From NCBI GenBank assembly GCA_021286765.1, contig JAJTBS010000006.1, positions 62,001-126,000 on the forward strand: a stretch of DNA of 64,000 nt, given 5' to 3'. This document shows, piece by piece, positions 33,065-64,000 of the stretch. This DNA comes from Holophagaceae bacterium (GTDB lineage Bacteria > Acidobacteriota > Holophagae > Holophagales > Holophagaceae). Both the position numbers and the translations under genes were made by a program. How positions within the stretch are numbered: the stretch's first letter is position 1; each line of letters begins with the position of its first letter. A model generated the notes under the pieces. The model was not told the origin of the DNA. It did not search any database and worked only from the letters and a program-made list of their open reading frames with translations.

Positions 33065-34231
33065 CTAGGCGAGGTCGCTGGGGTCGAAGAGGCCCGGTGG
33101 TGGGGCCTCCGCGAGCCGGGCGGCGCCGGAAGCTGCCTGATCGGCCGGAACCAACGCTCCAGCCCGAACCCCCATCAGCCTCAGCCTGCGTTCAAGGTCG
33201 ACGCGCTTGAGACAGGCGCGGGCGGCCTCTCGCAGCTGATCGGCACGGGCGATGGGGGCGGGGAGGGTCTGGTCGCGGGTGACGGTCTGGAAGTCCTCGA
33301 AGCGCAGCTTGATGCCGAGGCTGCCGGCCATCAGGCCCTTGCGCGCCAGGTCCTGGGCCAGCCGCTCACAGAGGTCCAGGAGGATCTTCGACAGCGCGGC
33401 GCGATCCGCCTTCACATGCAGGTCCCGCTCGAAGGTGGTCTCGCGGCTGATGGACTTGGGCTCCCGCGACAGGGTCAGGGGCCGCTCGTCCCGGCCATGG
33501 GCGGCCTCGTGCAGCCAGGCGCCGTAGCTCCGCCCGAAGTGCTCCACCAGCCAGGCCGGATCGGCCTGGGCCAGCTCCCCGATGGTGCGCAGGTGGAAGC
33601 CCTCCAGCTTCGCGGCGGCCTTGGGCCCGATGCCGTTGAGGGCGCGGCAGGGCAGGGGCCAGATGCGGGCGGGCAGATCGCCGAAGCCCAGGATGGTGAT
33701 GCCATCGGGCTTGTCGAGCTCCGAGGCCACCTTGGAGAGCAGCTTGTTGGGCGTGATGCCAATGGAGCAGGTGAGCGCCGTGGCCTGGCGGACCGCTTCT
33801 TTCAGGCGCAGGGCCAACTCCCGCGAGCCCCCTGGAACCTCGGTCAGGTCCAGGTAGATCTCGTCGATGCCACGATCCTCGATGAGCGGCGCCACCTCGG
33901 CCACGGCGGCCTTGAAGGCCCGCGAGACCCGCGCATAGGCCTCGAAGTGGGCGGGCAGCAGGATGGCCTCCGGCGCCAGGACGGCGGCCTTCATGAGCCC
34001 CATGCCGCTGTGCACGCCCAGGGCGCGGGCCTCGTAGGTGGCCGTGGTGGCCACGCCCCGGCCCACGTAGTCCTTCAGCTTCGGGTAGGGCTGCCCTGGT
34101 CCGGGCGCCCCAGCCCGTCGTCCGCCCACGACCACCGGCAGCCCCCTCAGCTCGGGGTGCTCCAGCAGCTCCACCGAGGCGAAGAACGCATCCATGTCCA
34201 GGTGCGCGATGCGCCGGGCCTCACCAGACAC
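33065..34231 (-). CDS. dinB: DNA polymerase IV (Y-family)
   Basis: A 388-residue translesion polymerase. Catalytic acidic motifs are DMDAFFASVE (residues ~12-21) and GIDEIYLDLT (~118-127). The helix-hairpin-helix thumb region CRALNGIGPKAAAKL is at ~195, and the little-finger domain follows to ~350. The C-terminal tail is proline-rich and ends GLFDPSDLA, which may be a beta-clamp-binding segment (GLFDP). The length is normal. It is convergent with the CPBP gene. Confidence 0.95.
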   Translation of the reverse strand: MSGEARRIAHLDMDAFFASVELLEHPELRGLPVVVGGRRAGAPGPGQPYPKLKDYVGRGVATTATYEARALGVHSGMGLMKAAVLAPEAILLPAHFEAYARVSRAFKAAVAEVAPLIEDRGIDEIYLDLTEVPGGSRELALRLKEAVRQATALTCSIGITPNKLLSKVASELDKPDGITILGFGDLPARIWPLPCRALNGIGPKAAAKLEGFHLRTIGELAQADPAWLVEHFGRSYGAWLHEAAHGRDERPLTLSREPKSISRETTFERDLHVKADRAALSKILLDLCERLAQDLARKGLMAGSLGIKLRFEDFQTVTRDQTLPAPIARADQLREAARACLKRVDLERRLRLMGVRAGALVPADQAASGAARLAEAPPPGLFDPSDLA

Positions 34232-35083: not shown

Positions 35084-35103
35084 AGGGCCCCCGCAGGGGC
35101 CCT
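35084..35103 (-). terminator. Hairpin terminator of tmRNA
   Basis: AGGGCCCC and GGGGCCCT form an 8-bp perfect stem with a 4-nt loop, six bases beyond the CCA end of the tmRNA fragment on the minus strand. It fits the intrinsic terminator of ssrA and shows that this flank is the native chromosomal downstream side. Confidence 0.65.
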
Positions 35104-35109
35104 ACATGT

Positions 35110-35133
35110 TGGTGGAGGTGGTGGGAGTCGAAC
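35110..35133 (-). ncRNA. ssrA: 3'-terminal fragment of tmRNA (ssrA), attachment-site duplicate
   Basis: On the minus strand the 24 bases run from GTTCGACT to CCTCCACCA, that is, a T-loop (TTCGACT), the T-stem 3' strand CCCAC, the acceptor 3' strand CACCTCC, discriminator A and CCA. The acceptor U at position 70 fits the G3-U70 alanine identity of tmRNA. Matching stops abruptly after the T-loop, where the AT-rich DNA begins. The body of ssrA is missing, so this is only the att-core copy. A tRNA-Ala 3' end is the alternative reading. Integrases of the CP4-57 type use the ssrA 3' end. Confidence 0.65.
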
Positions 35134-35307
35134 AATCATTATATTGATGTATATGTATTTGGAATATTTCGTTCAAAATGTAGAAATATTTGGGAATAAT
35201 TGTTTTAATAGTTTATATATATTCATTTTATTTATCTTGAACTTGGTTGGGTTTTGGTTCATTGTATGGATGGAGGTATGGACTCCAGAAGTCGGTTGAG
35301 GAGTGCT
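35134..35307. other. AT-rich integrase-proximal arm region
   Basis: From 35134 to about 35270 the sequence is almost entirely A/T (long runs such as TTTTAATAGTTTATATATA), in sharp contrast with the G+C-rich chromosome. No gene is visible. It probably holds the integrase arm-binding sites and the integrase promoter. The integrase start at 35308 is preceded by GAGGAG. Confidence 0.45.
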
Positions 35308-36738
35308 ATGGCCAAGGTGACACGCAGCGGGAAGGGCCCAGTTTTCGAAGTGGCTACGCTCGCCGCGTGGCACGAGCCGGGAACGTTCTGCGATCACGAG
35401 GGCGGCGGACTCTATCTCCAGGTACGCCAGGTCTGCGTGAACGGCGTCAAGCAGTGGGAGACCACGAAGCAGGGTAAGCGCGTCGCCAAAGTGACGAAGT
35501 ACTGGACCTTTCGATACTGGCGGAAATCCAGGGATGGCGGACGCAAGCTGAAAGAGTTCGGAATCGGACCCTTCACTGACTACACCCTGGAGGAGGCCCG
35601 TGAAATCGCGACCGAGCAGCGGAAGATCCGTCGCAAATTCGAAGATCCCATACTCGTTCGCAAGAAGCGGAAACAGGATCTCCGGGACTTGGTCGACAGC
35701 ATGAAGACGTTCGAAGAGGCGGCGCAGGCCTGCTGGGAATCCCACAAGCCAAGGTGGACGCCCGGTTACGCGGAGGATTGGCTGAACTCTTTGAAAACCC
35801 ACGTGTATCCCATGCTGGGGTCCATGGAGATTCGATCCATTCGAACCACGCACGTCGAGGGTGTGCTTAAACCGGTCTGGCACGAGAAAGCGGAGACGGC
35901 CAGCCGAGTCAGAAGCCGCATCGAGAAGGTGTTCAATTTCGCCAAGGGTAAGGAGTGGTACAGCGAGGACAACCCCGCTGCATGGGACGGGAATCTTGAC
36001 GCTCTGCTCATCGAATCACCCAGGCTCAAAAAACTGATAAATCACCCATCGCTTCCTTTTTCCCAAATCGGAGCATTCACAGATGTGCTTCGGCAGGAGA
36101 AAGGCACCGCAGCACGGGCCCTGGAGTTCTTGATCCTGAATGCCTCTCGCCCATGTGAGGTCCGTGGCGCGATGGGCGAAGAATTCGATCTCGAAAAGGC
36201 CCTGTGGACAGTGCCAGCGGTGCGCATGAAGGCCGGGAAGGAACATGTGATTCCGCTGTCACCTCGCGCGGTTGAGATCATTCGGAGCATGGGCAAGCTC
36301 AAGACCGGGCAGTTCGTGTTCCCTGGCGGAAAGCCTGAGACTTGCCTGTCTGACGCGGCCATGGCCGCGTTGATCAAGCGCATGGATGCGCATCGCGAAG
36401 AAAAGGAACAAACGGGATGGCGCGACCCAAAGGGGAAGCGCATCGTCCCCCATGGGTTCCGTGCGACGTTCAAAACGTGGGGGCAGGACTTCACCGAATT
36501 CGATCGTCAGGTCATCGAGTTCGCTCTTGCCCATGGTTTGCCGGACAAGACTGAAGCCGCCTATTCGAGGGGCGCCATGATCAAAAAGAGGCGGCCCCTG
36601 ATGGATGCATGGGCTGAGTTTTGTGCCACGAAAGGACTTGGGAATGCAGCGGAACGGAAGTTCCGACGGGTAAGGGACTACTCAGTTCCGAATCCCAAAA
36701 CTGTTCTCGTGGAGGTTTTCGATGAACAGTCTTCGTAG
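35308..36738 (+). CDS. int: P4/CP4-57-type tyrosine integrase
   Basis: A 476-residue site-specific recombinase. The N-terminal arm-binding region lies at ~10-120, the core-binding SAM-like domain at ~133-235 and the catalytic domain at ~250-430. The catalytic residues are seen: Arg281 in NASRPCEVRGA, His382 and Arg385 in PHGFRATF, His409 in LAHG and the nucleophile Tyr419 in AAYSRG. It is slightly longer than the family norm of ~400-430. Members of this group integrate at tRNA or tmRNA 3' ends, which agrees with the fragment upstream. ATG 35308 is chosen over 35254 because of its GAGGAG site. It appears intact. Confidence 0.92.
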   Translation: MAKVTRSGKGPVFEVATLAAWHEPGTFCDHEGGGLYLQVRQVCVNGVKQWETTKQGKRVAKVTKYWTFRYWRKSRDGGRKLKEFGIGPFTDYTLEEAREIATEQRKIRRKFEDPILVRKKRKQDLRDLVDSMKTFEEAAQACWESHKPRWTPGYAEDWLNSLKTHVYPMLGSMEIRSIRTTHVEGVLKPVWHEKAETASRVRSRIEKVFNFAKGKEWYSEDNPAAWDGNLDALLIESPRLKKLINHPSLPFSQIGAFTDVLRQEKGTAARALEFLILNASRPCEVRGAMGEEFDLEKALWTVPAVRMKAGKEHVIPLSPRAVEIIRSMGKLKTGQFVFPGGKPETCLSDAAMAALIKRMDAHREEKEQTGWRDPKGKRIVPHGFRATFKTWGQDFTEFDRQVIEFALAHGLPDKTEAAYSRGAMIKKRRPLMDAWAEFCATKGLGNAAERKFRRVRDYSVPNPKTVLVEVFDEQSS

Positions 36739-37304: not shown

Positions 37305-38024
37305 TTATCCCTGGAGGCTACTCTCCATTGCAATGGCACGGGGGTGGAGGATTTGGTTTTCGAGGTAGATATGCAGGTGGATGTCCGCTTCCAGGGCAGC
37401 AAGGCCTTGGTAGAGGGCCTGGAAGGTGGCGCAGCCATCTGCGGGGGCGGTATAGCTGTTTGTCAGCTTCCGGAGTTCCGCGAGGATGGCGCCGACAGCC
37501 TCATGCTCCATCTCCATCACCCGGATGGGGCTTTGGACGGTGCCGAAACAGGCACCACCTTGTTGCCCACTCTCCATGCTGCGGATGAAGGGGTAGAGGA
37601 TCTGCTCTTCCTTCATGAGGTGGGGCATGAGGTCGGCTGTCAGTGCCTGGAAAAGGTCGTAGATCCGCTCCATCTCAGGATGGCGCTCGCCATGGACCTC
37701 AAGCACCTTGGTCACCAGCTTGTCCAGCCTTGGCAGCTCGGTACGCAAGAAATCGTGATGCGTGGGGACGATGTGCGCAATGAGATCGGTCAGTGTCGCC
37801 TTCTCCCAGTCTGCGGGTGACGGGCTTCCCTCTGCTGCCTTCGGCAGGGATCCCAAATTCTTCAGGACTGAATCACAATCAAGGCCGACCGCGGCACAGG
37901 CCTCACCAAGAGGCCGGTGGCCGCCACAGCAGTAGTCAATGCCGACGCTCTCGAAATACCTCATGGCTTCAGGCTGGGTCTTGATCAGATCGCCGAGGCG
38001 GGTCTGCGCGTTGAGGCTCGTCAT
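37305..38024 (-). CDS. ric: Iron-sulfur cluster repair di-iron protein RIC (ScdA/YtfE)
   Basis: A 239-residue cytoplasmic di-iron protein that rebuilds Fe-S clusters damaged by nitric oxide or oxidants. The N-terminal DUF542 domain (~1-65) has the family motif GIDYCCGGHRPL. The hemerythrin-like domain (~80-235) holds the iron-ligand histidines in IVPTHHDFL, LMPHLMKEEQ, MEMEHEAVG and DIHLHIYLENQILHP. The length is normal. It is placed 42 bp downstream of narK, so it is probably made with the nitrate transporters as protection against nitrosative stress. Confidence 0.93.
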   Translation of the reverse strand: MTSLNAQTRLGDLIKTQPEAMRYFESVGIDYCCGGHRPLGEACAAVGLDCDSVLKNLGSLPKAAEGSPSPADWEKATLTDLIAHIVPTHHDFLRTELPRLDKLVTKVLEVHGERHPEMERIYDLFQALTADLMPHLMKEEQILYPFIRSMESGQQGGACFGTVQSPIRVMEMEHEAVGAILAELRKLTNSYTAPADGCATFQALYQGLAALEADIHLHIYLENQILHPRAIAMESSLQG

Positions 38025-38066: not shown

Positions 38067-39596
38067 CTAGCACTTCACTTCTGCGTTGGTTCTTGCGTAG
38101 TAGTACCAATTCAGGACGAGGCAGAGCAGGTAGAAGAACGCGAAGCCGTAGAGGGCAACCTCCACCTTGCCGGCATCCACCTGGATCTTGAAAATGGCCG
38201 GGATGATGAAGGCGCCGTAGGCAGCAGCCGCAGAGGTCCAACCGAGGACCGGGCCGGCGAGCTTCGGCTCGAAAATGAAGGGCACCATTTGGAAGGTGGA
38301 CCCATTGCCCAGTCCTGAGGCTACGAAGAGCAGTAGGAAGAGGATGAGGAAGGGCATGAAGTGGACGGCGGGGTCTGGCGCGGACTGGGCCAGCTTGACG
38401 AAGTGGGCCACGCCCAGGGCGCCTAGGATCATCAGGACCGTAGCCCACTGGGTCACGCGCGATCCGCGGAACTTGTCAGAGAGCATGCCGCCGATGGGTC
38501 GCACGATTGAACCCACCAGGGGCCCCAAGAAGGCGTAGGCCAGGGGATTCGGACTGTGTGGGTTTAGGACACCTACCGGGTAACGTCCGAACACCACTTT
38601 GATGAGCAGGGGAAGCGCGGAGCTGAAGCCAATGAAGCTGCCGAAGGTCATGAGGTAGAGCACGGTCATGATCCAGGTATGCTTCTTGGGGAAGATGGCA
38701 AATTGGGCGTCCAGGCCGGTCTTGATCTTGCCGGGCAGGAGCTTCATCAGGCCGAGGCAGACCAGGATTGTGAGCACCAGCACGCCCATCTGGGGCAGGA
38801 GGCCGAGTTTGAAGCGCAGGAGCAGCAGGACGCCCATGGCCGTGGCGGCAAACCCGATGAGATGGAGCCCCAGGATCTTCAGCAGGGCGAGACTGGTGGG
38901 CTCGCAATCCTGTCCCTCCCGGTTGTCCATGAGGAACCAAGCGAGAAGGGCGACCACGGCCAGGAAGGGCACCCACACCAGTGCACCGTTCTGAACCCAG
39001 AGCTGGCGTCCGGCAGCATTGAGGTGCGGCGCCCCAGCGAGCGCTCCGAACAATGACGTGCCCATGACCGCCGGCACCAGGATCTGCATAATGCTGACAC
39101 CCAGATTGCCAACACCGGCGTTCAGGCCGAGGGCAAGGCCGGCCAGCCGCTTGGGGAAGAAGCCGTTGATGTTGGCCATGGATGAGGCGAAGTTGCCCCC
39201 GCCGATGCCGCTGAGGGCCGCCAGAATCGCGAAGGTGGCGAAGGGAGTGGTCTTATCCTGGAGGGCGATACCCGCGCCTAGGGCGGGTGCCACGAGGAGT
39301 GCGGTGGTGAGGGCGATGGTGTTACGGCCCCCTGCCAGGCCCACGAGGAAGGCGCTGGGGATGCGCAGCGTGGCTCCACTCAGTCCGGCAATGCTGATGA
39401 GGGTGAAGAGTTGGGCGGCGGTGAAGGGAAATCCGGCCTCCTTCATCCGGACCGTCAGAACGCTCCAGAACATCCAGATACAGAAGGCGGAGAGCAGGGC
39501 CGGTACAGAGACTGCGAGGTTCCGCCAGGCTGTGCGGCTGCCGCCTGCGGCCCAAGCCTGAGGGTCTTCAGGTTTCCAGTCGGTGAGCTTGGCCAT
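38067..39596 (-). CDS. narK: NarK-family nitrate/nitrite transporter (without insertion)
   Basis: A 509-residue MFS protein with twelve predicted helices and NarK-type signatures: GGGNFASSMANINGFFPKRLAG near residue 130 and a second nitrate-signature-like stretch near ATGLGNGSTFQMVPFIF at ~440. Such proteins exchange nitrite for nitrate or import nitrate with protons. It is second of two narK genes, 20 bp after the first; the pair suggests division of labour between symport (NarK1-like) and exchange (NarK2-like). Which is which was not established. Confidence 0.9.
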   Translation of the reverse strand: MAKLTDWKPEDPQAWAAGGSRTAWRNLAVSVPALLSAFCIWMFWSVLTVRMKEAGFPFTAAQLFTLISIAGLSGATLRIPSAFLVGLAGGRNTIALTTALLVAPALGAGIALQDKTTPFATFAILAALSGIGGGNFASSMANINGFFPKRLAGLALGLNAGVGNLGVSIMQILVPAVMGTSLFGALAGAPHLNAAGRQLWVQNGALVWVPFLAVVALLAWFLMDNREGQDCEPTSLALLKILGLHLIGFAATAMGVLLLLRFKLGLLPQMGVLVLTILVCLGLMKLLPGKIKTGLDAQFAIFPKKHTWIMTVLYLMTFGSFIGFSSALPLLIKVVFGRYPVGVLNPHSPNPLAYAFLGPLVGSIVRPIGGMLSDKFRGSRVTQWATVLMILGALGVAHFVKLAQSAPDPAVHFMPFLILFLLLFVASGLGNGSTFQMVPFIFEPKLAGPVLGWTSAAAAYGAFIIPAIFKIQVDAGKVEVALYGFAFFYLLCLVLNWYYYARTNAEVKC

Positions 39597-39616: not shown

Positions 39617-41143
39617 TCAGGCGGGTTCGACGGCTTCATCAGGAGCAAGGGCAGGTGCATGGTGCTCGAAGCGGGTGTAGAGGGTCTCATTCTGCTCCCG
39701 GGTGATACGGCGAACCACCGCATGGAGCCAAACCAGGCAGATGACAGAAAGGACCATGAGGAACATCCACATGGTCGTCCAGAGTCCTGTGGCCTTGAGC
39801 AGGTAGCCGAAGAGGATGGGACCCGCGAATCCACCCAGCCCACCGATCACACCCACGATGCCGCCGACCACGCCCACCTCATCGGGGAAGTAGTCAGGGA
39901 TGTAGCGGTAGACCGCAGCCTTTCCGATGCCCCAGACAATGCCCACCATGAACACCAGGAAGGTGAAGATCCACACGTTGGCCTGGAAGAACACATGGGT
40001 GGTACCTGAGGCCAACAGTTGCTTCTTCTTGACCCGGTCGCCGACTTTTACCACGGGGGCCTGCCAGAACCGGCTCTGAGGGAACACCAGCATCTGGTCG
40101 TTCCGAGTGTCCGGTTCCACGTCCTTGGTCCGCAGGGGATAGGTCGTATCGCCTACCGTGATGTGTTCGGAGCTGACCGCGGTCACCACGCCGCCGATCT
40201 GAGCCAGTACGGATGGACCGGGACTCTCGATGGACATGCGCGGGACCATGAGCGCCGCACAGGCGAAGATGCTTAGGCCAAAGGTCCAGTACATGACCGT
40301 TCGGGCCCCGAATCGGTCCGACATCCAGCCGCCAGCGGCGCGGATGAGGCCGGAGGGCAGGCTGAACAAGGAGGCCAGGAGCCCTGCCATGACCAGGCTC
40401 ATGCCGTAGACGCCCACGTAGTAAGGGATCAGCCACTGGGCCAAGGCCACGAAACAGCCGAAGACCAGGAAATAGTAGAGCCCAAAACGCCAGACACGAA
40501 CGTTCCGCAACGGGGTCAACATCTGGGCGAAGGACCGGTCCTTCGCGCCTTCGGCCTTCTTCTCCTGGGTGAAGAGAAAGAAGGCCACAGCCATGACGAG
40601 CAGCACGATGGCGTAGATCTTTGGCAGCATCCGCCAGGCTTCCAGGTTCGTCCCGCCAGCGGTGAGTTTTTTCAGAAGGAGCGGTGCGCCCATGCTGGTG
40701 ATAGCGGAACCGGCATTGCCTGCGCCGAAGATGCCCAGGGCCGTGCCCTGACGGGCTTTGCTGAACCAGACACTGGAATAGGCGATGCCCACCGCGAAGG
40801 CCGCGCCGGACAGACCGAAGCCCAGGGAGGCGAACAGGAAGCCCTGGTAGTCATGGACACTGCCTAGCAACCAGGTGGGCAGGGCGGCCAAGAGCAGGAG
40901 GATCGTGTAGACCTTGCGCCCGCCAAAGCGATCGGTGAGCAGGCCCACGGGCAACCGCATGACGGAGCCCGTGAGCACGGGGATCCCAATGAGCCAGCCG
41001 ATCTGGGCCGTGTCCCAACGGAAAAGACCGTTCTCCACCAGGAAGGTGACGAGGACGCCGTTGAGCGTCCAGACGGCGAAACACAGAGTGAAGGCCAAGG
41101 TGCTCATGGCCAGGGCTGTGTAAGCTTGGGATCGTTCCGACAT
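39617..41143 (-). CDS. narK: NarK-family nitrate/nitrite transporter with a soluble insertion
   Basis: A 508-residue MFS transporter. The motif RFGGRKVYTILLLLAALP at ~72 and the nitrate signature GIFGAGNAGSAITSMGAP near residue 138 place it in the NarK family. Between helices at about residues 302-386 lies an ~80-residue hydrophilic insertion with the segment WQAPVVKVGDRVKKKQLLASG, which resembles a biotinyl/lipoyl-type barrel motif but has no clear acceptor lysine context. The ATG at 41143 follows GGAG; the frame to 41206 is not used. A Crp/Fnr-like palindrome lies ~70 bp upstream. Confidence 0.88.
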   Translation of the reverse strand: MSERSQAYTALAMSTLAFTLCFAVWTLNGVLVTFLVENGLFRWDTAQIGWLIGIPVLTGSVMRLPVGLLTDRFGGRKVYTILLLLAALPTWLLGSVHDYQGFLFASLGFGLSGAAFAVGIAYSSVWFSKARQGTALGIFGAGNAGSAITSMGAPLLLKKLTAGGTNLEAWRMLPKIYAIVLLVMAVAFFLFTQEKKAEGAKDRSFAQMLTPLRNVRVWRFGLYYFLVFGCFVALAQWLIPYYVGVYGMSLVMAGLLASLFSLPSGLIRAAGGWMSDRFGARTVMYWTFGLSIFACAALMVPRMSIESPGPSVLAQIGGVVTAVSSEHITVGDTTYPLRTKDVEPDTRNDQMLVFPQSRFWQAPVVKVGDRVKKKQLLASGTTHVFFQANVWIFTFLVFMVGIVWGIGKAAVYRYIPDYFPDEVGVVGGIVGVIGGLGGFAGPILFGYLLKATGLWTTMWMFLMVLSVICLVWLHAVVRRITREQNETLYTRFEHHAPALAPDEAVEPA

Positions 41144-41239: not shown

Positions 41240-41725
41240 TTAAACGGGCACCGCATCTGGACGGTCTGGTTCATCGGAAATACTAGAGAAGTCGTGAGAT
41301 ACCTTTAGATCCTGCAAGGTGGTTTCGGCCATAAAGGCCGTAAGCTGATTCTGAAGGACATCCCAGGCCGGGCGGATGGGGCAATGGCACCCATCCTTCC
41401 CTCCGTGGTGACCCAAGAGGCAATCCCCGAAGGGTTCGGGACCCTCCATGGCTACGACCACCTCTTTCAGGGTGATCTCTTCCGGTGCCCGGTTCAGGCG
41501 GAATCCGCCGGAGGGTCCCCTGTGTGATTCCAGAATTCCACAGTGGCCGAGGATCTGAAGGATCTTGGCCAGGTACGGGCCGGGAAGCTCCAGGTCAGCA
41601 GCCAGACAGCGGGCCAGGCGATAGGTGCCATCACTAGGAAGTCGGACGAGAACCTGGAGCGCATACCGGGTCGGCGTGTGGAAGATGCTGCGCGAAGGGG
41701 CAAAGCCAAGCTCGGAATGCTGCAT
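41240..41725 (-). CDS. Rrf2-family transcriptional regulator (Fe-S type)
   Basis: A 161-residue winged-helix regulator of the Rrf2 family (IscR/NsrR group). The DNA-binding part (~15-80) includes LPGPYLAKILQILGHCGILESHRGPSGGFRL. Three cysteines, Cys102, Cys113 and Cys115, in the C-terminal region could bind a [2Fe-2S] or [4Fe-4S] cluster. It lies ~97 bp upstream of narK on the same strand and divergent from the nar operon. Regulation of nitrate and nitrosative-stress genes in the manner of NsrR is likely, but it could equally be an IscR-like sensor. Confidence 0.85.
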   Translation of the reverse strand: MQHSELGFAPSRSIFHTPTRYALQVLVRLPSDGTYRLARCLAADLELPGPYLAKILQILGHCGILESHRGPSGGFRLNRAPEEITLKEVVVAMEGPEPFGDCLLGHHGGKDGCHCPIRPAWDVLQNQLTAFMAETTLQDLKVSHDFSSISDEPDRPDAVPV

Positions 41726-42086: not shown

Positions 42087-42896
42087 GTGTTCCCCAGAAC
42101 CGCGCCACGACTGATTTTGCTATCAGCCCTGCTGCTTCCTCTGACGGAGCCTCTGGCCGCCCAGGATGCCGAAGCCCAGTTCCGCAAGAGCTGCATGAGC
42201 TGCCACACCATAGGCGCGGGCAAGAAGGTGGGCCCGGACCTGAAGGATCTGGGCAAGCGCCGGCCCCATGACTGGTCAGCCAAATTCATCACCGGGGCGG
42301 CGGCAATGATCGATGGGGGGGATCCCACCGCCACGGCGTTGCTGCGGGAGTTCAACGGTGTGAGGATGCCTGAATTGGGCGTTACGGTTCCTGAGGCCCA
42401 GGCCCTCCTGAAACTGATCGATGACTTCAGCGCTCAGGGCAAGACCCTTGGGACTGCTGCGATCTCGCGGCCCGCCACGCCCGAGGACATCCGTCGCGGC
42501 AGGCTCTACTTCACGGGCGATCTGCGCTTTAAATCCGGAGCCCCTTCCTGCATGTCCTGCCACCGCGCTCAGGGTGTGGGCGGCTGGGGCGGCGGGTGGC
42601 TGGGACCGGACCTGACCGGTGCGACCGCCAAGTACGGGGCCGGATTGGCAGGGGTCATTGAGAACCCGTCCTTCCCGACCATGCAAGGCGTGTTCGCTAA
42701 GACCCCAGCTAGCCCGGAAGAAGCCTTCCAGGTGGCCAGCTTCCTGAAGAGCGTGGGCTCCCAGCCGCCGGATCAACGCGATGTGATCTTCCCAGTTCTC
42801 GGCGTTGTTGGCCTGGTGGGGGGAATGCTGCTGGGTGGCCACCTGGGGAGAAAGCGCTTGAAGGGCGTGCGCAAGAACTTGAAGCCAAGAGCCTGA
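42087..42896 (+). CDS. narC: Diheme cytochrome c, NarC-like
   Basis: A 269-residue exported cytochrome with a signal peptide (~1-25, ending LAAQ). Two heme-binding motifs are seen: CMSCH at residues 36-40 and CMSCH at 155-159. A C-terminal membrane helix (~232-252) is followed by a basic tail, so it is anchored facing the periplasm. It is first gene of the nar operon and lies 26 bp before narG. In Thermus a diheme NarC also opens the operon and helps to dock and supply the nitrate reductase; the same is inferred here. The start is GTG 42087 with GAGGAGG at short spacing. Confidence 0.85.
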   Translation: MFPRTAPRLILLSALLLPLTEPLAAQDAEAQFRKSCMSCHTIGAGKKVGPDLKDLGKRRPHDWSAKFITGAAAMIDGGDPTATALLREFNGVRMPELGVTVPEAQALLKLIDDFSAQGKTLGTAAISRPATPEDIRRGRLYFTGDLRFKSGAPSCMSCHRAQGVGGWGGGWLGPDLTGATAKYGAGLAGVIENPSFPTMQGVFAKTPASPEEAFQVASFLKSVGSQPPDQRDVIFPVLGVVGLVGGMLLGGHLGRKRLKGVRKNLKPRA

Positions 42897-49263: not shown

Positions 49264-49844
49264 GAGTCAGGACGGTCGCCCTAGGGGGCGCTGTGGCCTT
49301 CGGGGCCTCCCTGATGATCCTTGCCGTCAGCGTGGACACAAAGCTGCTGGGGGACAACTCCGGCTACAAGCCGGTCCAACCCATCGCCTATTCCCATGCC
49401 CTGCATGCGGGCGAGCTGAAGCTGGACTGTCTGTTCTGCCACACGGGCGCCGAGCAAAGCCGGCATGCGGGAATCCCCCCGGCGAGTACCTGCATGAAGT
49501 GCCATGAAACCATCCTGAACAAGGCGGGCACCAAGCCTGGCGTATCGGATCCGAGTCCTGAGATTGCCAAGCTGGCCAGGGCTGTGAAGGAAGGACGCCC
49601 GATCGAATGGGTGCGCATCCACCGGTTGCCCTCCCACGTGGATTTCCCGCACAGCCGGCACGTCAACGGTGGTGTGGCATGCCAGAACTGCCATGGCGAG
49701 ATCCAGGGCATGGAGCGCGTCGAGCAGGCCCTGGCCTTAACTATGGGCGAGTGCCTAACCTGCCACCGAACCGAGAACCAGAAGCTGCAACTGAACGGCA
49801 AAGCGCCTATGGCGCCCACCGACTGCAGCGCCTGTCATCACTGA
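49260..49844 (+). CDS. actA: Alternative complex III pentaheme cytochrome c, ActA
   Basis: A 194-residue c-type cytochrome with an N-terminal membrane anchor (~6-24). Five CxxCH motifs (CLFCH, CMKCH, CQNCH, CLTCH, CSACH) bind five hemes, as in ActA of alternative complex III. Further histidines (YSHALHAGE, FPHSRHVNGG) can serve as distal ligands. It would face the periplasm and gather electrons for exit to soluble cytochrome c. It starts inside the narI stop and lies 9 bp before actB. Confidence 0.92.
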   Translation: MRVRTVALGGAVAFGASLMILAVSVDTKLLGDNSGYKPVQPIAYSHALHAGELKLDCLFCHTGAEQSRHAGIPPASTCMKCHETILNKAGTKPGVSDPSPEIAKLARAVKEGRPIEWVRIHRLPSHVDFPHSRHVNGGVACQNCHGEIQGMERVEQALALTMGECLTCHRTENQKLQLNGKAPMAPTDCSACHH

Positions 49845-49853
49845 GGAGAAGCC

Positions 49854-52775
49854 ATGCACGTATGGAAGAGCCTCGGCGAACGGCGGGGACTCATCAAGAA
49901 AACCAAAGCGGAGTTCAGCGACGAACTTCCCGTGGGCGAGAGCGTGCGCCAGATCACCCGACGCGACTTCTTTCGGTTCTCCGGACTTGGTTTTGCGGCG
50001 GGTCTGGCCATCGGATGCAAGAGCAAGGTGGTCGAAAAGGCGATGCCCTACCTGAACGCCCAGGAAGGCCTCACGCCTGGCGTGGCACAGTGGTACGCCA
50101 CCACTTGCCAGGGCTGTTCGGCGGGCTGCGGCGTCCTGGCCCGCAGCCGCGACGGTCGCCCCGTGAAACTGGAAGGGAATCCCGACCATCCCCTGAATCG
50201 CGGCGGCCTATGCGCCATCGGCCAGGCCCAGACGCGCGGACTGTACGATCCTTCGCGTCTCAAGCAACCTCGCTTGCAGGGGCAGGACTGCGCCTGGCAG
50301 GCATTCGATGCTGATCTGGCCAAGCGGTTTGCGGAGATCAAGGGGAAGGGCGGGAAGCTCCGGATCCTGACTGGAACCCTACTCAGCCCCACGTTGAAAG
50401 CCACCATCCATGGCTTTCTCGGCGGATTCAAGGACGGCAAGCTGATCAGCTACGATGCCCTGAGCTGCGCCGCCATCTCTGCCGCCTATGAGCAGACGCA
50501 TGGGCTGAAGGTACTGCCGCACTACCGTCTCGAGGAAGCTGAGTTCATTCTCGGCATCGAGGCGGATTTCCTGGGGACTTGGATCAACCCTGCAGGCTTC
50601 ACCCGGGCCTACGCCAGTCGGCGCGGCCCTGACAATTCACGGCCCATGTCCAAGCATGTGCAAGCCGAAGCCTGCATGTCCCTGACGGGCAGCAACGCTG
50701 ATGAACGCCTCCGTCTCGCGCCTTCCGAGGTTGTTCCGTTCCTTGAAGCCCTGGCCTCGGCCCTGGGTTCTGGGAAGTCCGGCGGAGACTTGCGGAAAGA
50801 GCTCCGTACCAAGGCCAATGCTTTGGCTCACGAGCTGGGCGAGCACAGGGGTTCATCATTGGTGCTTTGCGGCGCCAATGACCTGTACGCGCAACTGCTC
50901 ACGGCTCGCATCAACCACCTGCTGGGCAACGAGGGCCACACGGTGGATCTGTCTCATCCAAGCCTCCAGAAGCAGGGTGATGACCCGGCTCTTGCGGGGC
51001 TCATCAAGGAGATGGGCGAGGGACAGATCGATGCGGTGATCGTGGTGGGTGCCAACCCGTCCTATGACCTCCCCGAGGAGTTCTCCAGTGCCTTCGCCAA
51101 GGTGCCTATCCGAATGAGTCTCTGTCTGACGGCGGATGAAACGGCGGTGACCTGCACCCATCTCGCACCCGATCATCACTGGCTGGAAACCTGGAGTGAC
51201 GCGGAACCGGTGGTTGGGACCATGAGCCTGGTTCAGCCCCTCACGAATCCCCTATTTCAAACCCGCGCGGCCCTGGAAAGTTTCCTGACCTGGGGTGGCC
51301 AATCTTCATCGGCCCTGGAGCATCTCCGAGAGCACTGGCGAAAGGAAGTCTTCTCCCGTCAGAAGGTCGTGGGGGATTTCGGCACCTTTTGGGATGGAGT
51401 GCTGCAGAAGGGAGCGGTCCAGCTTGAAGGGAGCCCGACCCCACCGGCTTATCGCGAGGACCTGAATGCCTCCCTCCGAGCGAGGAACGAGGCGAAACCA
51501 GGAACCTACGAGTTGCTGCTGATGGCCAAGGTGGGCATGGGGGATGGCCGACATGCGTTCAACCCATGGCTCCAGGAGTTGCCTGATCCCATCACCAAAA
51601 TGACCTGGGACAACTATGTGTCCGTGTCACCAGCCACAGCCAAAGGGCTGGGCCTGGAGCAGGGGGACCTGGCTGCTCTGCGGCCCCAAGGTCTATCTGA
51701 GTTGACGCTTCCCGTGGTGGTGCAGCCCGGCCAGGATGACCGCACCCTCGCCGTGGCTCTGGGCTATGGAAGAAAGGATGGCGGTCCTAAAGACTGGAAG
51801 ACTGTGGGCACGAATGTCTATCCCTGGCGCAGTCTGGCCACTGGGTTCCTGGCTGCGTCCTTAACTGGCCTGCAGGTCCGAAGGGTCGGTGGCCGGGCCG
51901 AACTGGCTGCCACCCAGGATCACCACAGCCTTGAAGGGCGTGAGCTGGTGCGCGAGATGGCCCTGGCGCCCTATCTGCGGGATCCGGCCTCGGCGCGGCC
52001 CCATGAACAACCGGGACCTTCCGTCTATGGGGAGCATCCTCACGGCAAGCATCGCTGGGCCATGGTCATCGACCTGAACAAATGCACCGGTTGTTCCGGC
52101 TGCGTCATTGGCTGCCAGGTTGAAAACAACATTCCCATCGTGGGCAAGGAAGAGGTCGCGAAGAAGCGGGAGATGCACTGGCTGCGCATCGACCGGTACT
52201 ACGAAGGCAGCGAGGCTGAACCCAAGGTGTTCCACCAACCCATGATGTGTCAGCAGTGCGACAACGCGCCCTGCGAGAACGTCTGCCCCGTGCTGGCCAC
52301 GGTCCACAGCGAAGAAGGCCTGAATCAGCAGGTCTACAACCGCTGCGTGGGCACACGCTACTGCGCTAACAACTGCCCCTACAAGGTCCGCCGCTTCAAC
52401 TGGTGGGAGTATCCCCACAACAGCGAGGTGGAGCGGCTGGCGCTCAATCCCGATGTGACGGTACGCAGCCGGGGCGTCATGGAGAAGTGCAGTTTCTGCG
52501 TGCAGCGCCTCATGACAGCCAAGATCCAGGCCAAGAATGAAGGCCGTGAACTGAAGGACGGGGAAGCCCAGCCGGCCTGCATGCAGAGCTGCCCGGCCCA
52601 GGCCATCGTCTTCGGCGACGTACAGGATCCGGATAGCCAGATCAGCCATGCCATGCGCGACCCAAAACGGTTCCTCGTGCTCGGGGAACTGGGTATCGGA
52701 CCCGCTGTGAGCTACCTCACAAAAATACGCAACGCGGACTCGACCGAAGCCAAGGGAGGCCACCATGGCGCCTGA
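49854..52775 (+). CDS. actB: Alternative complex III molybdoenzyme-like/Fe-S fusion subunit, ActB
   Basis: A 973-residue periplasmic subunit. Residues ~33-58 have a twin-arginine signal (ITRRDFFRF) and a lipobox-like AIGC55. Residues ~75-690 are a molybdopterin-oxidoreductase-like domain without a visible Mo ligand. Residues ~720-930 form a PsrB-like domain with four Fe-S motifs ([38 protein letters not shown]). Unlike the published picture for ActB, the first domain keeps a full cysteine set, Cys85, Cys88, Cys92 and Cys120 (CxxCxxxC-x27-C), enough for an extra [4Fe-4S] cluster. It overlaps actC by 11 bp. Confidence 0.9.
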
Positions 52776-54174
52776 AGACCACACCTCCGCCTTGCCCGCC
52801 ACTCTCCTGATCGAGGATGAACAGGAGCGTGGCTACGGTCATGTCCTGCCCCTCATCGACGGGAACAAGACCTATTCCCAAGTCACTGAGGAAGTCTTCA
52901 GCACCACGGAGCGCATGCCCCCCCTCAAGTGGTGGCTGGCTCTCTCGGTGTCCTTGTCACTGCTTCTGCTGGGGGCCTGGGCCGTGACCCAGACCGTGAC
53001 CCGGGGCATCGGCACCTGGGGCCTCAACCGCACTGTGGGCTGGGCCTTCGACATCACCAATTTCGTCTTCTGGGTGGGCATCGGGCACGCCGGGACGTTG
53101 ATCTCCGCCATCCTCTTCTTGTTCCGGCAAAGGTGGCGCACCAGCATCAACCGAGCAGCGGAAGCCATGACCATCTTTGCGGTCATGTGTGCCGGCACTT
53201 TCCCGATCATCCACATGGGCCGACCCTGGCTGGCTTTCTGGGCCACGCCCTATCCGAATACCCGGGGCCCGCTTTGGGTGAACTTCAAGAGTCCGTTGCT
53301 GTGGGATGTCTTTGCCATCAGCACTTACTTCATCATCTCACTCACTTTTTGGTATCTGGGTATGGTCCCTGACCTGGCCACCATGCGGGACCGGGCCAAG
53401 ACCAAGGTCCGCAAAGCCATTTTCAGTATCTTCTCCCTGGGTTGGAATGGATCCAACCGGACCTGGAGCCGCTACGAGACGGTCTACATGTTGCTGGCGG
53501 GTCTCAGCACGCCGCTTGTAATCTCGGTGCACACCATCGTGTCCATGGACTTTGCTACCTCCGTGATTCCCGGCTGGCATGCGACGATCTTCCCGCCCTA
53601 CTTCGTGGCTGGGGCCGTCTTCAGCGGCTTCGCCATGGTGCTCACGCTCATGATCATCGCCCGGAAGGTGATGGACCTGGAGGAGTACATAACGGTGCGG
53701 CACCTGGAAGCCATGACCAAAGTGATCATCGCCACTGGGATGATCGTGGGCATGGCCTATGGCACCGAGTTCTTCATGGCCTGGTACAGCGGCAACAACT
53801 TCGAGCGCTACGTATTCATCAACCGTGCCCTTGGCCCTTTCAAATGGGCCTACTGGTCCATGGTGAGCTGCAATGTGATCATTCCCCAGCTCTTCTGGAT
53901 CCGGAAGGTGCGCACGACGCCCTGGATGATTTTCATCCTGTCCATCTTCGTGAACATTGGCATGTGGTTCGAGCGCTTCGTCATCATCGTGACGAGCCTC
54001 CACCGCGACTACCTCCCTTCCTCTTGGGCCATGTACACACCCACCTTCGTGGAAGTGGCCATCTTCCTGGGCAGCTTCGGGCTCTTCTTCACCTGCTTCC
54101 TGATCTTCACCCGGTTGCTGCCCATGATTGCGGCCAGCGAAGTGAAAGGAGTGCTGAAGCATGAGGAGCACTGA
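52765..54174 (+). CDS. actC: Alternative complex III membrane subunit ActC (NrfD-like)
   Basis: A 469-residue NrfD/PsrC-family membrane protein with about ten helices, the quinol-binding subunit paired with ActB. Stretches such as [20 protein letters not shown] near residue 95 and [13 protein letters not shown] near residue 154 match ActC. The order within the operon and the overlap with actB and actDE support the call. Confidence 0.93.
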
Positions 54175-55357
54175 CGCCATCACCCTGACCCGGTTCCGCG
54201 CCAGCTTCGCGGATCCCCACCTCCTGCTTGAAGCCGTGAAGCGCCTTAAGCAGGAGGGCTATCCGATCATCGACACCTACTCGCCCTTCCCCGTGCACGG
54301 GATGGATGAGGCCATCGGCCTGAAACCCTCCCGCCTACCCCGTGCCTGCTTGGCCTTTGGACTGCTCGGTCTGGCTACCGCGCTGGGCGTGCAGATCTGG
54401 ACCTCGGCCTATGACTACCCCCTGATCGTGGGTGGCAAGCCCCTGGTGTCCCTTCCCGCTTTCATCCCTGTGTCCTTTGAACTCACGGTCCTGTTCGCGG
54501 GGCTGGGTGTGGTGGCCAGCCTGTTCGTGGCTTCAGGCATGAGGCCGAAGTTTAAGGTGCCTGATCTTCATCCGGGCGTGAATGACGATCGCTTTGTGGT
54601 AGCCGGTGAGATCCAGGCCGGCGCCAACTTTACGGTGGTCCAATCCTTGATGGCGAGCCTTGGTGCCCTAGAAACCGAACTACTGGTGGAGGACAAGAGT
54701 CAAACGGATCACTCCCTGCTGGATCGCGAGGCGAAACCCCTTGCCTTCCTTCTGGCTGCCATTCCCGCGGTGTTGGTGCTGGCCGCTTTGCCTCTGCTGA
54801 ACCGAAATTACTTGAAGCGGAATCTTGCTTGGGACGGGGGCATGATGGCCCCTGTGGCCTACCAGTCCTTCGATCCGCACCCATCATTGCCGGGCGGGCA
54901 GGTGCTCCAGACACCTCCCGCAGGCACCGTGTCGCGCAAGGGGCTGGTGCCACTGCCCTTTGGACCCGGAAAGGTGGAGGCCGAGCGTGCGGGCCTCGAA
55001 TTGAAGAACCCCTTTCAGCCATCCCAGGAGAATTTCAGCCGCGGGAAACTGGTCTACGATCGGAGCTGCGCCGCCTGCCATGGCCTGGACGGTGACAACA
55101 ACAGCAGTGTGATCGTGGCGAGGGGCCTGTTGGCTCCAGCGATCCTGGTGGCACCGGTCGTGAGGAACATGCCTGATGGGCGTCTCTTCCATGTGGCGAC
55201 CTTCGGGGGTCCCCAAAAGATGAAGGGGCTGGGCGACCTCATCAGTCGCGACGACCGCTGGAAAGTGGTTCTCTACATCCGGGAACTGCAGAGAGCCGCC
55301 GCGCCGAAGCCCTTACCTGCGCCTGCGCTGTCCCCGAGCACCGGAGCGACATCATGA
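54161..55357 (+). CDS. actD: Fused ActD-ActE subunit of alternative complex III
   Basis: A 398-residue protein joining two Act subunits that are normally separate. Residues ~1-165 are ActD (DUF3341; two membrane helices around residues 56-73 and 103-125, [18 protein letters not shown] at ~35). A third membrane helix (~190-208) leads to a periplasmic cytochrome c domain (~300-380) with heme motif CAACH at residues 303-307, equivalent to ActE. No stop or frameshift is seen between them. It starts inside actC (14-bp overlap) and overlaps actF by 4 bp. Confidence 0.88.
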
Positions 55358-56502
55358 AACCCAACCAGGTGTTCTCCGTTCCTTCGCGGGATCTCACCAG
55401 ACCCCAGTTTCCCACCCTCGCGGAGATCGGGGAGAAATTCCGTCTCGGGGCCTGGACCCTTTCAGGCCTGGGGCTATTGATGTTGGGCATCGGTCTCGCC
55501 ACCAGTCCCCTGCATGCCTGGGCCAATGTGCTGATGACCGCCTTCAACCTGACCTGCGTGGGGCTCGGGGGCCTGTTCCTATTGGCCATCCAATCCACCA
55601 CGGGGGCGCGCTGGAGTGATCCCATTCTCAAGGCCCATCGGGCCATGCCTGCGTTGCTCCCTATCGCAGGGCTCATGATGTTGGCGCTCTGGTTTGGGGC
55701 TGACACCCTCTACCCGTGGGCTCGCCCCGAAGCCCATGGGGACCACCTGCTCAAAGGGCGTCTGGTCTGGCTGAACCGGCCCTTCTTCTTTGGCCGTATC
55801 CTGCTCTTTTTCGGTCTCTGGATATTGCTGGGGCGCCGGATTGTTCAGCGGGGTAAGGGATCTGCGGTCTTCATCCTGGTGTTCGGGGTCACCTTCGTCC
55901 TGGCGAATTTCGACTGGATCATGACCCTTGAACCCGCCTGGAATAGCACCATCTTCGCCATCTATGGCTTCTCTGGGATGTTTCTCCAGGGCATCGCCAT
56001 CGTTACCATCAGCGCCATCGTCCTGCGCCGGGTGGGCCTGTTGCCTGAGATCTCCAAGGCCCAGAACCATGACCTGGGCAAACTGCTCTTCGCATTCAGT
56101 TGCTTCTGGGCCTACATCTGGCTCAGCCAGTTCCTGCTGGTGTGGTACGCGAACATCCCTGAGGAAACCGCGCCCATTCGCCTGATGCTCAACAGCAAGT
56201 GGACGCCGTTCTTCTACCTGAACCTGGTGCTCAATTTCGGCCTTCCCTTTGTGATGCTGCTCCAGCGCAAAGCGAAGACGAATGAGCGGGTCCTGATGGT
56301 GGCTTGTTTCACTGTGTTGGCCGGACATTGGCTGGATCTCTATCTGATGGTGTTGCCACCCGTCTTGAATGGCGCCTCCCCCAGCTTCGGGTTTTCAGAA
56401 GCGGGCGGGATCCTCCTTCAATTCGGCCTGGGGCACATGGCCTGCTGGCCAATCTTCATGAAGGATGTGAATCCTGAGCAGGAACTGCCTCAGGCCGGGT
56501 GA
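55354..56502 (+). CDS. actF: Alternative complex III membrane subunit ActF (NrfD-like)
   Basis: A 382-residue membrane protein with ten predicted helices, the second NrfD-family subunit. The region TLEPAWNSTIFAIYGFSGMF near residue 190 matches the quinone-site side of ActF. The ATG overlaps the actDE stop (ATGA). It is the last gene of the operon. The 140-bp space to the convergent chemoreceptor gene contains a short GGTGA/TCACC repeat but no convincing terminator. Confidence 0.92.
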   Translation: MKPNQVFSVPSRDLTRPQFPTLAEIGEKFRLGAWTLSGLGLLMLGIGLATSPLHAWANVLMTAFNLTCVGLGGLFLLAIQSTTGARWSDPILKAHRAMPALLPIAGLMMLALWFGADTLYPWARPEAHGDHLLKGRLVWLNRPFFFGRILLFFGLWILLGRRIVQRGKGSAVFILVFGVTFVLANFDWIMTLEPAWNSTIFAIYGFSGMFLQGIAIVTISAIVLRRVGLLPEISKAQNHDLGKLLFAFSCFWAYIWLSQFLLVWYANIPEETAPIRLMLNSKWTPFFYLNLVLNFGLPFVMLLQRKAKTNERVLMVACFTVLAGHWLDLYLMVLPPVLNGASPSFGFSEAGGILLQFGLGHMACWPIFMKDVNPEQELPQAG

Positions 56503-59015: not shown

Positions 59016-59234
59016 TTACTTCTTGGGACCGTGTTGAAGGGTGCTTCGAAAGGCCAGGAACAAAGCGACGGTCGTGAGGGCCAACGAGACGCCGAAGGCG
59101 CCAGGCAGGACACTGCGCTGGCCATCGAGGACCGCACCCAGCACCGTTTCAAACAGGTAGAGCTGGATGACCAGCAGCACGAGGATCACACCCAGGGCTG
59201 CTGGGGAAATGCGGACGCTGGGAGTGGGATTCAT
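59016..59234 (-). CDS. Small membrane protein of the molybdoenzyme operon
   Basis: A 72-residue protein with two hydrophobic helices (about 14-31 and 44-60) separated by a short loop. The ATG at 59234 overlaps the stop of the Rieske gene (ATGA), so it is coupled to that operon. I cannot name a family beyond a small, uncharacterised membrane protein. It may anchor the Rieske subunit or the complex. It is 82 bp before the chemoreceptor gene on the same strand. Confidence 0.7.
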   Translation of the reverse strand: MNPTPSVRISPAALGVILVLLVIQLYLFETVLGAVLDGQRSVLPGAFGVSLALTTVALFLAFRSTLQHGPKK

Positions 59235-59791
59235 GCCTGCATCTCCGTCTGTTCGCGGGGACAATCCGCCACGCGGTCAAGGTTTTCGAGCGTAGGTTTG
59301 GGAAGCTCACCGACGGCCCAAAGACTTCCATCGGCTCGCTCCTCGATGGCGATGGCTGAGAGAGGTCGGCTGGGCGGCCCCTGGACTGGGAAGCCCCGGT
59401 CCGTTTCGAAGAAGCCCAGGTGGCAGGGGCATTCCAGGCGTCCACCGGAAAAGCGGACGGCACACCCCAGATGCGTGCAGGTCTGGCGGTAGGCCTTCAA
59501 CTCACCCTTGGAAGTCCGCAGCAGGATGCAGGCGTCGTGAGCATCCCTGAACTTGAACAGTTTGCTCTCACCGCTCTTCAGATCAGAGGCCATGCCCAAG
59601 GCTACAGGATGGTCGGAAGGTCCTGACCCTGGATCGGAGGCGCCCTCAAGGGGCTTCTTCCTCAGCCACAGGTACCCAATACCCCCCGTAAAGCCGGCGC
59701 TGACGAGAGCGAGGAAACGGGCGAATTCTCGACGGGAGAAATGTCCCTCCTCGGCCAGTTCGAGGGGAAAGGCGCGACGCCACCAGGCCAT
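59231..59791 (-). CDS. Rieske [2Fe-2S] protein with twin-arginine signal
   Basis: A 186-residue Rieske iron-sulfur protein. The N terminus has the twin-arginine motif SRREFARF (Arg20-Arg21) and one membrane helix (~27-45), so the soluble domain is on the periplasmic side. Cluster ligands are Cys105, His107, Cys121 and His124 (CTHLGC, CPCHLG), with Cys110 and Cys123 forming the usual disulfide. The short N-terminal part resembles bc-complex Rieske proteins more than dioxygenases. It is coupled to the ferredoxin and small membrane genes by 1- and 4-bp overlaps. Confidence 0.9.
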   Translation of the reverse strand: MAWWRRAFPLELAEEGHFSRREFARFLALVSAGFTGGIGYLWLRKKPLEGASDPGSGPSDHPVALGMASDLKSGESKLFKFRDAHDACILLRTSKGELKAYRQTCTHLGCAVRFSGGRLECPCHLGFFETDRGFPVQGPPSRPLSAIAIEERADGSLWAVGELPKPTLENLDRVADCPREQTEMQA

Positions 59792-60371
59792 CAGAAGCCT
59801 CCATCGATGAGCAGTGCGGCGTCCAGATGCAGTGGCGTTTCCGGATCAGGCACCATAAGGGCATTCTTCGTCTTCACGTGCACGGCTCCGATGAGGAAGT
59901 CGCGTAAGGGTTTGTTCTTGCGCAGATTCGCCACTTCATCTTTGCGCACAAAGAGCAGGGCCTGGCTGGGACAGACCGTGGCGCACATGGGCTTGTGGCC
60001 CACGGAGGTACGGTCATAGCAGAGGTCACACTTGAGCATCTGTTCGAGGCCCGAGAACACGATGGGGATGCCGAAGGGGCAGCTCAGCTCGCAGTTCTGG
60101 CAGCCAATGCAGCGGGGTTTCTGGGCGGAGTGGACCACGCCATCCTCGCTGCGTTTGATGGCATCCGAGGGGCAGACCTGGGCGCAGATAGGATCTTCGC
60201 AGTGCATGCAGACGGTGGGCACGGTCTGGGTGCTGTTGAAGCGGTCCATCTCGTCGAGGTGGATCATGGACCGGCCCCGGTGGGTGCCGCACTCGGCGCA
60301 GGCACCCACGCAGGAGCGACAGCCGATGCAGCGCTGGGGATCGATGAAAAAGCCGTAGTCCTGGGGCACCA

Positions 60372-60372
<1 letters not shown>
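59791..60372 (-). CDS. 4Fe-4S ferredoxin-type electron-transfer subunit
   Basis: A 193-residue Fe-S protein of the NrfC/DmsB type, the electron-carrying partner of a molybdenum enzyme. Motifs are CIGCRSCVGAC (~15-25), CMHCEDPICAQVCPS (~55-69), CIGCQNCELSCPFG (~88-101) and CDLCYDR...CATVCPS (~115-135), enough for four clusters. There is no signal sequence, so it is cytoplasmic. Its ATG overlaps the stop of the molybdenum subunit by 1 bp. Confidence 0.9.
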
Positions 60373-62633
<2,261 letters not shown>

Positions 62634-62640
62634 GAAAACC

Positions 62641-63753
62641 TCAGGACTTCATGCTGGTGGAATCAAGGATGGGCTCGGCATGCACAGGGATCGTGGCAAA
62701 GGGATCGAAGGCCCCCTGCAGACGTTCCCCCTGAGCTTTAGCGACGAGCCGTCGTTTGCAGCGGGGGCAAAGGTCCAGGTGATGAACCCCCCCACCATGT
62801 TGTGCGCCGTCCAGGTCCAGCTCCTTCCAGAGGGCGCCGAGATCGCGGCGCTGGTTGGCCCGGATGAAGGGCGTCCCGCAGCCCTTGCAGGCCAGTCGTC
62901 CCTCGGCTTCGCCCTCGGCCTTGTAGAGGGTGACACCGAGCTGGGCGGGCCGCTGGATGACGTGGAAGAGCTTGCCGAAGGGCAGCCCGAGCAGCATGAG
63001 AATCACCGTCAGTTCGTGCAGGAAGGAAAGGGTGGCGAAGTTGCGGCCCTGTAGCCACTTCTCGGAAGCGGTGAGCATCAGTCCCGTCATGCTCACGGCG
63101 ATGAGCAGGACCAGGGGCAGGAGGTCCAGATCGAAACGCTGTGTGGCGGTGTCGCCTTCATCCTGCTTGCGGCGGATGAGGCTGAGCACACACCCGGCGA
63201 TCACCATGAAGGCCGCCAGATCCAGAACATGGAAGCTGCAGAAGGCCATGAAGCTGTCGAGCGGGAAGGACCCCGCCGGGAAGCCGAACAACCAGGCCTG
63301 GTACCGGGCGGAGTTCAGACCTTCGCTGGTGAAGCGGATCCACCCGAACACCAGCGGAATGGTTACGGCAAAACCCAGCATGCAGCCCCAGGCGATGAGG
63401 GCGTGGGCTCCCCAGCGGCGAAGCGATCGCTTCTCGATGAAGCGCTGCAGGAACATTTGGTCCAGGGCCAAGACGGCCATGCGGGGGAGCGCCTTGAAGG
63501 CCTTGGGGGAGAGCAGTGTTCCGACCGTGTGCTGGAAATACATCCGAGTGGCCGGCCGCTCGATCCAGGTGAAATAGCGGTAGGCCACGCCGAAGCAGGC
63601 AAACAGGGTGGCCAGAAGGTAGCCCAGAAGGGCGGGATCGAGCCAACGTCCCCATCGGCTGCCCAGGGCCACGGCGCCGCAGACCACCAACGTGGCGAGA
63701 GCAGCCCGAATCAGGGGGCGTGGTTCAAGATCAAGGCGGTCCGACAAGGACAT
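62641..63753 (-). CDS. NarI/HdrE-like cytochrome b membrane protein with C-terminal zinc ribbon
   Basis: A 370-residue membrane protein with about six helices (~18-70, 120-140, 165-190, 215-235 and 250-265). Histidines suitable for heme b occur in [28 protein letters not shown] and KLFHVIQRP, resembling cytochrome b subunits of the NarI/HdrE type. The cytoplasmic C-terminal ~100 residues carry CKGCG and CPRCK, a zinc-ribbon pair not expected in such proteins. It starts the operon, ending 8 bp before the molybdenum subunit. The ~60-bp gap upstream holds the operon promoter. Confidence 0.78.
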
Positions 63754-63812: not shown

Positions 63813-64000
63813 TCAAGGACGACAAGCAAGTCCTGTTCGTGAGTGTTTTTTGGTGGGCCCCTTCAAGTTGCGCAGGTCCATCAGTTGGAGATCCCGAATC
63901 GTGGCTTCGGTCATCGAGGAGGCCACCTGGGACTTCACGGCGCTCCAGGCATCGTGAAGTGGACAGGGGTGGTCACCGCTACAGACCGGGAAACCCATGA
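63813..64000 (-). CDS. Rrf2-family regulator, C-terminal part (partial)
   Basis: The minus-strand frame enters from the right edge and ends at 63813, leaving ~62 residues. They match the C-terminal end of Rrf2 regulators: VCSGDHPCPLHDAWSAVKSQ, with two cysteines (and a CSGDHPC cluster-like spacing), then an amphipathic helix ending TIRDLQLMDL. It is a second regulator beside the molybdoenzyme operon, reading in the same direction. The DNA-binding part lies outside the window. Confidence 0.75.
   Translation of the reverse strand, partial: MGFPVCSGDHPCPLHDAWSAVKSQVASSMTEATIRDLQLMDLRNLKGPTKKHSRTGLACRP

Follow-up and report, generated by a model that had tools for sequence, protein, structure and literature searches.

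The 64,000-nucleotide stretch of Holophagaceae DNA analysed here (the window; C7:62001-126000 of the host genome, G000) very probably contains the left part of an integrative genomic island, about 63.6 kb long, that occupies the 3' end of ssrA, the gene for tmRNA, and carries genes for nitrate respiration as its cargo. At the left end of the island the forward strand reads TGGTGGAGGTGGTGGGAGTCGAAC, the reverse complement of GTTCGACTCCCACCACCTCCACCA, which forms the last 24 nucleotides of tmRNA; neither Rfam nor ARAGORN finds a tmRNA or tRNA body within the 64-kb window. The same 24 bp recur as the 3' end of an intact ssrA gene on the same contig and the same strand, with a core-to-core distance of 63,626 bp, and these two exact copies are the only ones in the G000 genome when up to three mismatches are allowed. 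A preliminary description of the window had held that the fragment was severed from its ssrA body and had predicted a full ssrA with the same 24-bp end somewhere to the right; our search of the contig bore out both claims. The island is longer than was then thought, its right boundary falling at 98735 in window numbering, far past the end of the window. The same description had named, as evidence against an island, a tmRNA body elsewhere with its own 3' end. Such an end exists, but it is the matching repeat itself, and so it does not refute the island.

The two ends lie in a 104-kb stretch of C7 from which Ns are absent. When the two cores are compared, identity drops abruptly on either side of the 24-bp match, and the number of exact 24-bp repeats expected by chance in 3.15 Mb, by simple counting, is negligible (about 1e-8). 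No additional core copies of the kind that would signal tandem islands were found inside the island, allowing up to six mismatches. The GC content of the island is 0.608, as against 0.676 and 0.696 in its flanks, and the AT-rich stretch that had been reported after the ssrA end is indeed there (Table 1).

Table 1. Features of the island and its ends, in window numbering unless a contig is named.
Feature	Position	Strand	Remarks
Displaced native ssrA terminator hairpin (probable), outside the island	35084..35103 (stem)	-	folds at -22 kcal/mol
Left attachment core (displaced 24-bp ssrA 3' end)	35110..35133	-	exact match to C7:160736-160759
AT-rich left end of island	35134..35262		129 bp, 22% GC
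Left arm-type site (probable), TGTATGGATGGAGGTATGGA	35263..35282	+	two ATGG units spaced 12 bp
Tyrosine integrase, 476 aa	35308..36738	+	Arm-DNA-bind_3 / Phage_int_M / Phage_integrase domains
RIC/YtfE-type di-iron Fe-S cluster repair protein (NO stress)	37305..38024	-	TIGR03652 243 bits, cutoff 205
Two NarK-like nitrate/nitrite transporters	38067-39596, 39617-41143	-	scores under curated cutoffs
Rrf2-family regulator	41240..41725	-	
Cytochrome c	42087-42896	+	
NarG	42923-46549	+	TIGR01580 1495 bits, cutoff 1084
NarH	46561-48057	+	
NarJ	48057-48596	+	
NarI	48589-49263	+	
Alternative-complex-III-like module	49293..56502	+	c7 cytochrome, Mo/Fe-S protein, NrfD, ActD-cytochrome c, 382-aa protein without assignment
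Second molybdoenzyme module	59016..63753	-	DUF6755, Rieske, Fe-S, molybdopterin oxidoreductase, membrane anchor
Second Rrf2-family regulator	63813..64000, on to 64271	-	
Island past the second Rrf2 regulator, in order			CopD-domain protein, MobB, ABC exporter with TetR, NDH2-like protein, NorB
Island after NorB			RadC, two AAA proteins (one FtsH-like, M41 peptidase domain), HTH-M78/DUF4411 pair
Right part of island			HsdR-HsdM-HsdS (complete type I restriction system), PADLOC candidate pair PDC-M11A/B, second dinB
Right end of island	to 98735		right arm site (probable), new terminator (predicted), then intact ssrA
Intact ssrA	C7:160736-161126 = 98736-99126	-	tag ANDNFELALAA

The entire nar block sits between the two repeats, in agreement with the earlier suggestion that the nitrate and molybdoenzyme genes are cargo. 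Among the annotated island proteins, which include several small ones that are unmatched, we recognised no transposase domain and neither relaxase nor type IV secretion genes, the features that we looked for as those of an integrative conjugative element; no excisionase was recognised. In view of the missing relaxase and conjugation genes, transfer between cells would need a helper. Two dinB genes, 80% identical and both on the reverse strand, stand outside the left end (33065-34231) and inside the right end (97053-98351, equivalent to C7:159053-160351), and the island could be lost through recombination between the two. A broken dinB likewise follows ssrA, a hairpin and degenerate arm units in the congener G024.

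A search for NarG (E < 1e-150) found it in 10 genomes of the genus out of 47, G000 being one of the ten. Six of the nine congeners concerned carry the nar block at one common locus away from ssrA, with shared flanking genes on both sides in G004, G005, G006, G007 and G012, and inverted between those genes in G029. The flanks of this fixed locus meet within about 70 bp in G000 (C3:171176-171244) and the nar block is absent there, which could be the ancestral state. The preliminary description had held that a nar block without an integrase at the same locus in relatives would count against the island. Congeners do carry the block, but at a different chromosomal locus that is empty in G000, and so their possession of it does not refute the island. 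Among themselves the fixed-locus copies are 93-99% identical; the island NarG shows 89-90% identity with them and 96% with the copy in G028. This pattern makes import from another lineage a better explanation than relocation inside the genome, without proving it, and on these sequence comparisons the nar block most likely entered with the island from a related lineage.

The island may be a composite, in which a smaller ssrA element with the integrase and the defence genes came first and the nar block was added later by homologous recombination, an IS or the like, so that the nar cargo was not part of a single arrival; we give this history an appreciable but lesser likelihood. The nar block has its genes in the order seen at the fixed locus of the congeners, it and the defence part look like distinct modules, and the closest nar copy, on contig C12 of G028 (L192 1-1637), adjoins what we read as transposase-like sequence. 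Yet the interior of the island holds no copy of either the core or the arm site, its annotated proteins include no transposase domain and, whatever its past, the nar block now lies between both cores and would leave together with them. The island may also be no longer mobile. It is unlikely that the nar block shifted within the host's own lineage from the fixed locus to the island rather than coming from outside. The joined flanks at the empty locus in G000 are what this account has in its favour, but the island NarG groups with that of G028 and outside the fixed-locus copies. Moreover, the DNA flanking that locus is equally far from the group in G000 and in G029 (about 80% in both), yet the NarG of G029 is 93% identical to the group; in addition, the island includes genes, RIC and NorB among them, that did not turn up beside the fixed block across the regions examined.

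Both flanks of the island are present in the single-contig genome of G018, which has no NarG match; they have the same order and orientation there, at 86-93% DNA identity, and are 10.4 kb apart. The intervening DNA (L064 6853-17261) encodes SecDF, a thermolysin-like protease and a molybdoenzyme, with no close counterpart in G000. We considered and rejected the idea that this segment is itself a mobile element: its genes are ordinary and none matches the island integrase. The preliminary description had proposed, as a check, to look in a relative lacking the nitrate genes for an intact ssrA next to the methyltransferase gene. This was not what we found in G018, the nearest relative, where those 10.4 kb of other genes stand in between. 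A clean empty site defined by ssrA, dinB and the methyltransferase gene was not found in the 47 genomes of the genus, among which G018 is the only one besides G000 to have methyltransferase and dinB genes close to ssrA, and no second genome with this island was found. It is very improbable that the 24-bp repeat arose by chance or is an unrelated relic and that the nar genes are ordinary chromosomal genes. The lack of a clean empty site would suit this reading, but the end repeats, exact over 24 bp and 20 bp and correct in order and orientation, the GC shift at the core, the complete integrase and the collinear flanks of G018 without nar all argue against it. The G024 assembly (72% complete, 4% contamination), which is probably a mixed bin, contains two complete tmRNA genes, on contigs C61 and C65.

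The 20-bp repeat TGTATGGATGGAGGTATGGA has its second copy at 98661-98680, in direct orientation and 55 bp inward of the right core. It is absent, allowing up to two mismatches, from the 76 other genomes of the family (77 with G000). The repeat fits a pattern in which ATGG(G/A) occurs twice at a spacing of 12 bp, and a period-12 pair of this sort occurs no more than 250 bp upstream of the integrase gene in 14 of 80 related loci from public genomes; the remainder of those loci gives an expectation of 0.14, so that the enrichment is about 100-fold. The repeat is probably an arm-type site of the integrase that is bound by its Arm-DNA-bind_3 domain.

Two hairpins accompany the cores. The one that adjoins the left core on its outer side resembles the terminator directly 3' of ssrA in G018 (GGGCCCCT...GGGGCC) and this likeness suggests that it is probably the original ssrA terminator, displaced to the left end. 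The other, AAGCCACTGACAAATCAGTGGCTTATTTTTTT, is borne by the island and lies 3' of the intact ssrA, where it is predicted to fold at -18 kcal/mol. A search of the 77 genomes for hairpins of the island type yielded matches in 12, one in each, and by inspection all 12 are directly 3' of a tRNA-Ser-like or tmRNA 3' end. CCATAC-type units follow most of these hairpins; there are none in G066 and G070, and one contig stops too early. Because the hairpins all stand just after the 3' ends of RNA genes, the island described here has probably exchanged the terminator of ssrA, as predicted from its sequence, together with the 3' end of that gene. A literature search combining integrative elements in tRNA genes with terminators gave few matches and we assert no priority for the terminator feature. 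Downstream of ssrA, many congeners have a conserved stretch after the native terminator, GGTGGAATTGCCGCTGCGG(G/C)CAGGTAGGCGCCC (for example L051, L054, L056 and L064), and others have short inverted repeats with CATAAG...CTTATG.

The integrase has its catalytic R, K, HxxR, H and Y residues all present in the alignment that we inspected. CP4-57-like elements of Enterobacteria also target the ssrA 3' end and encode an Arm-DNA-bind_3 tyrosine integrase, whose gene adjoins the intact ssrA and is oriented away from it. The Holophagaceae island shares the target and the integrase type, but its integrase gene is at the displaced fragment and reads towards ssrA, while a small ORF and the dinB copy adjoin the intact gene. 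The label 'CP4-57-type', which the preliminary description had given the integrase, is thus apt for its domains but not for its layout. Among 80 relatives of the integrase in public genomes, a complete 3' end of tRNA-Ser type (typed by sequence) lies upstream of the integrase gene in the sense orientation in nine; we saw no tRNA-Ser 3' end in the opposite orientation near these 80, and no tmRNA-like end closely resembling the host ssrA. In phages, plasmids and viral contigs the integrases found were all distant, with identities no higher than about 42%.

The reversed layout recurs in a sister island contained in one contig of G004, with a 13-bp core repeat, in which tRNA-Ser(cga) is followed by a hairpin, paired arm units, about 13.6 kb of DNA, an arm pair and the integrase gene, distal to the tRNA gene. 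Several tRNA-Ser 3'-end-like pieces in both orientations lie outside the left core of this sister island (L037 4300-4620) and are possibly traces of earlier insertions. In G008, G039 and G046, for which the integrase side of the element was covered, the integrase gene is preceded by arm-like pairs and by a core-like sequence in antisense orientation. A palindromic core was considered as the cause of the reversed layout; it suits the cores of G004 and G008 and fails for that of the ssrA island, and the idea was rejected. We propose tentatively, at somewhat less than even confidence, that these elements form a Holophagaceae island family with tRNA-Ser and ssrA as targets, a reversed layout and an end module made up of the core, about 10 nucleotides, a replacement terminator, about 20 nucleotides and a paired arm site, which repairs both the 3' end of the RNA gene and its termination. 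A different integrase (26-32% identical) is encoded directly behind ssrA, in the usual layout, in G012, G024, G025 and G035, showing that ssrA is a recurrent target in the genus.

Mobile blocks of anaerobic-respiration genes are familiar from the nitrate conjugative element of Thermus and from the perchlorate reduction island. Their integration machinery and hosts differ from those described here, and no conjugation genes were recognised in the Holophagaceae island. The island belongs to an already known kind, the tDNA genomic islands, which the passages of the Islander paper drawn on here define by a tRNA or tmRNA gene, a displaced 3' fragment of it, an integrase gene inside and a length of 2-200 kb (PMC4383910). 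The present island has a complete tmRNA gene, a matching downstream 3' fragment in the same orientation, a tyrosine integrase gene between the two and a length within that range, so that no criterion in those passages is missed; beyond that definition, it adds an integrase at the fragment end and an island-borne terminator. The closest functional parallel is provided by the vcr genomic islands of Dehalococcoides, which carry genes for vinyl chloride respiration and sit at ssrA, their far boundary being marked by a direct repeat of the end of that gene (PMC3146451). They differ in having a CcrB-like serine recombinase and an insertion within the T-loop part of ssrA, whereas the Holophagaceae island has tyrosine integrase domains and a 24-bp core.

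The most likely mechanism is one in which a circular form with a 24-bp ssrA-like core recombined with the chromosomal ssrA by means of the island's own tyrosine integrase, which probably binds the 20-bp arm site at both ends of the island. The right end would then have received a complete ssrA whose last bases and terminator are island-derived, and the original 3' fragment and terminator of ssrA would have been displaced to the left end. The cargo brought in by such an event would be the nar block that several congeners hold at a fixed locus, together with a defence module.

If the proposed family is real, the double repair of the 3' end and the terminator may be the reason why such an element can reside in a gene that, like ssrA, is present once per genome. 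The end module of core, terminator and paired arm site offers simple markers for finding sister islands. For the Acidobacteriota, nitrate respiration, the handling of NO and an alternative-complex-III-like module are brought together within one site-specific island, and a whole nitrate-respiration gene set could pass between species as one block. Together with the presence of this block at a fixed locus in several congeners, this points to a testable route for the spread of a denitrification step from species to species.
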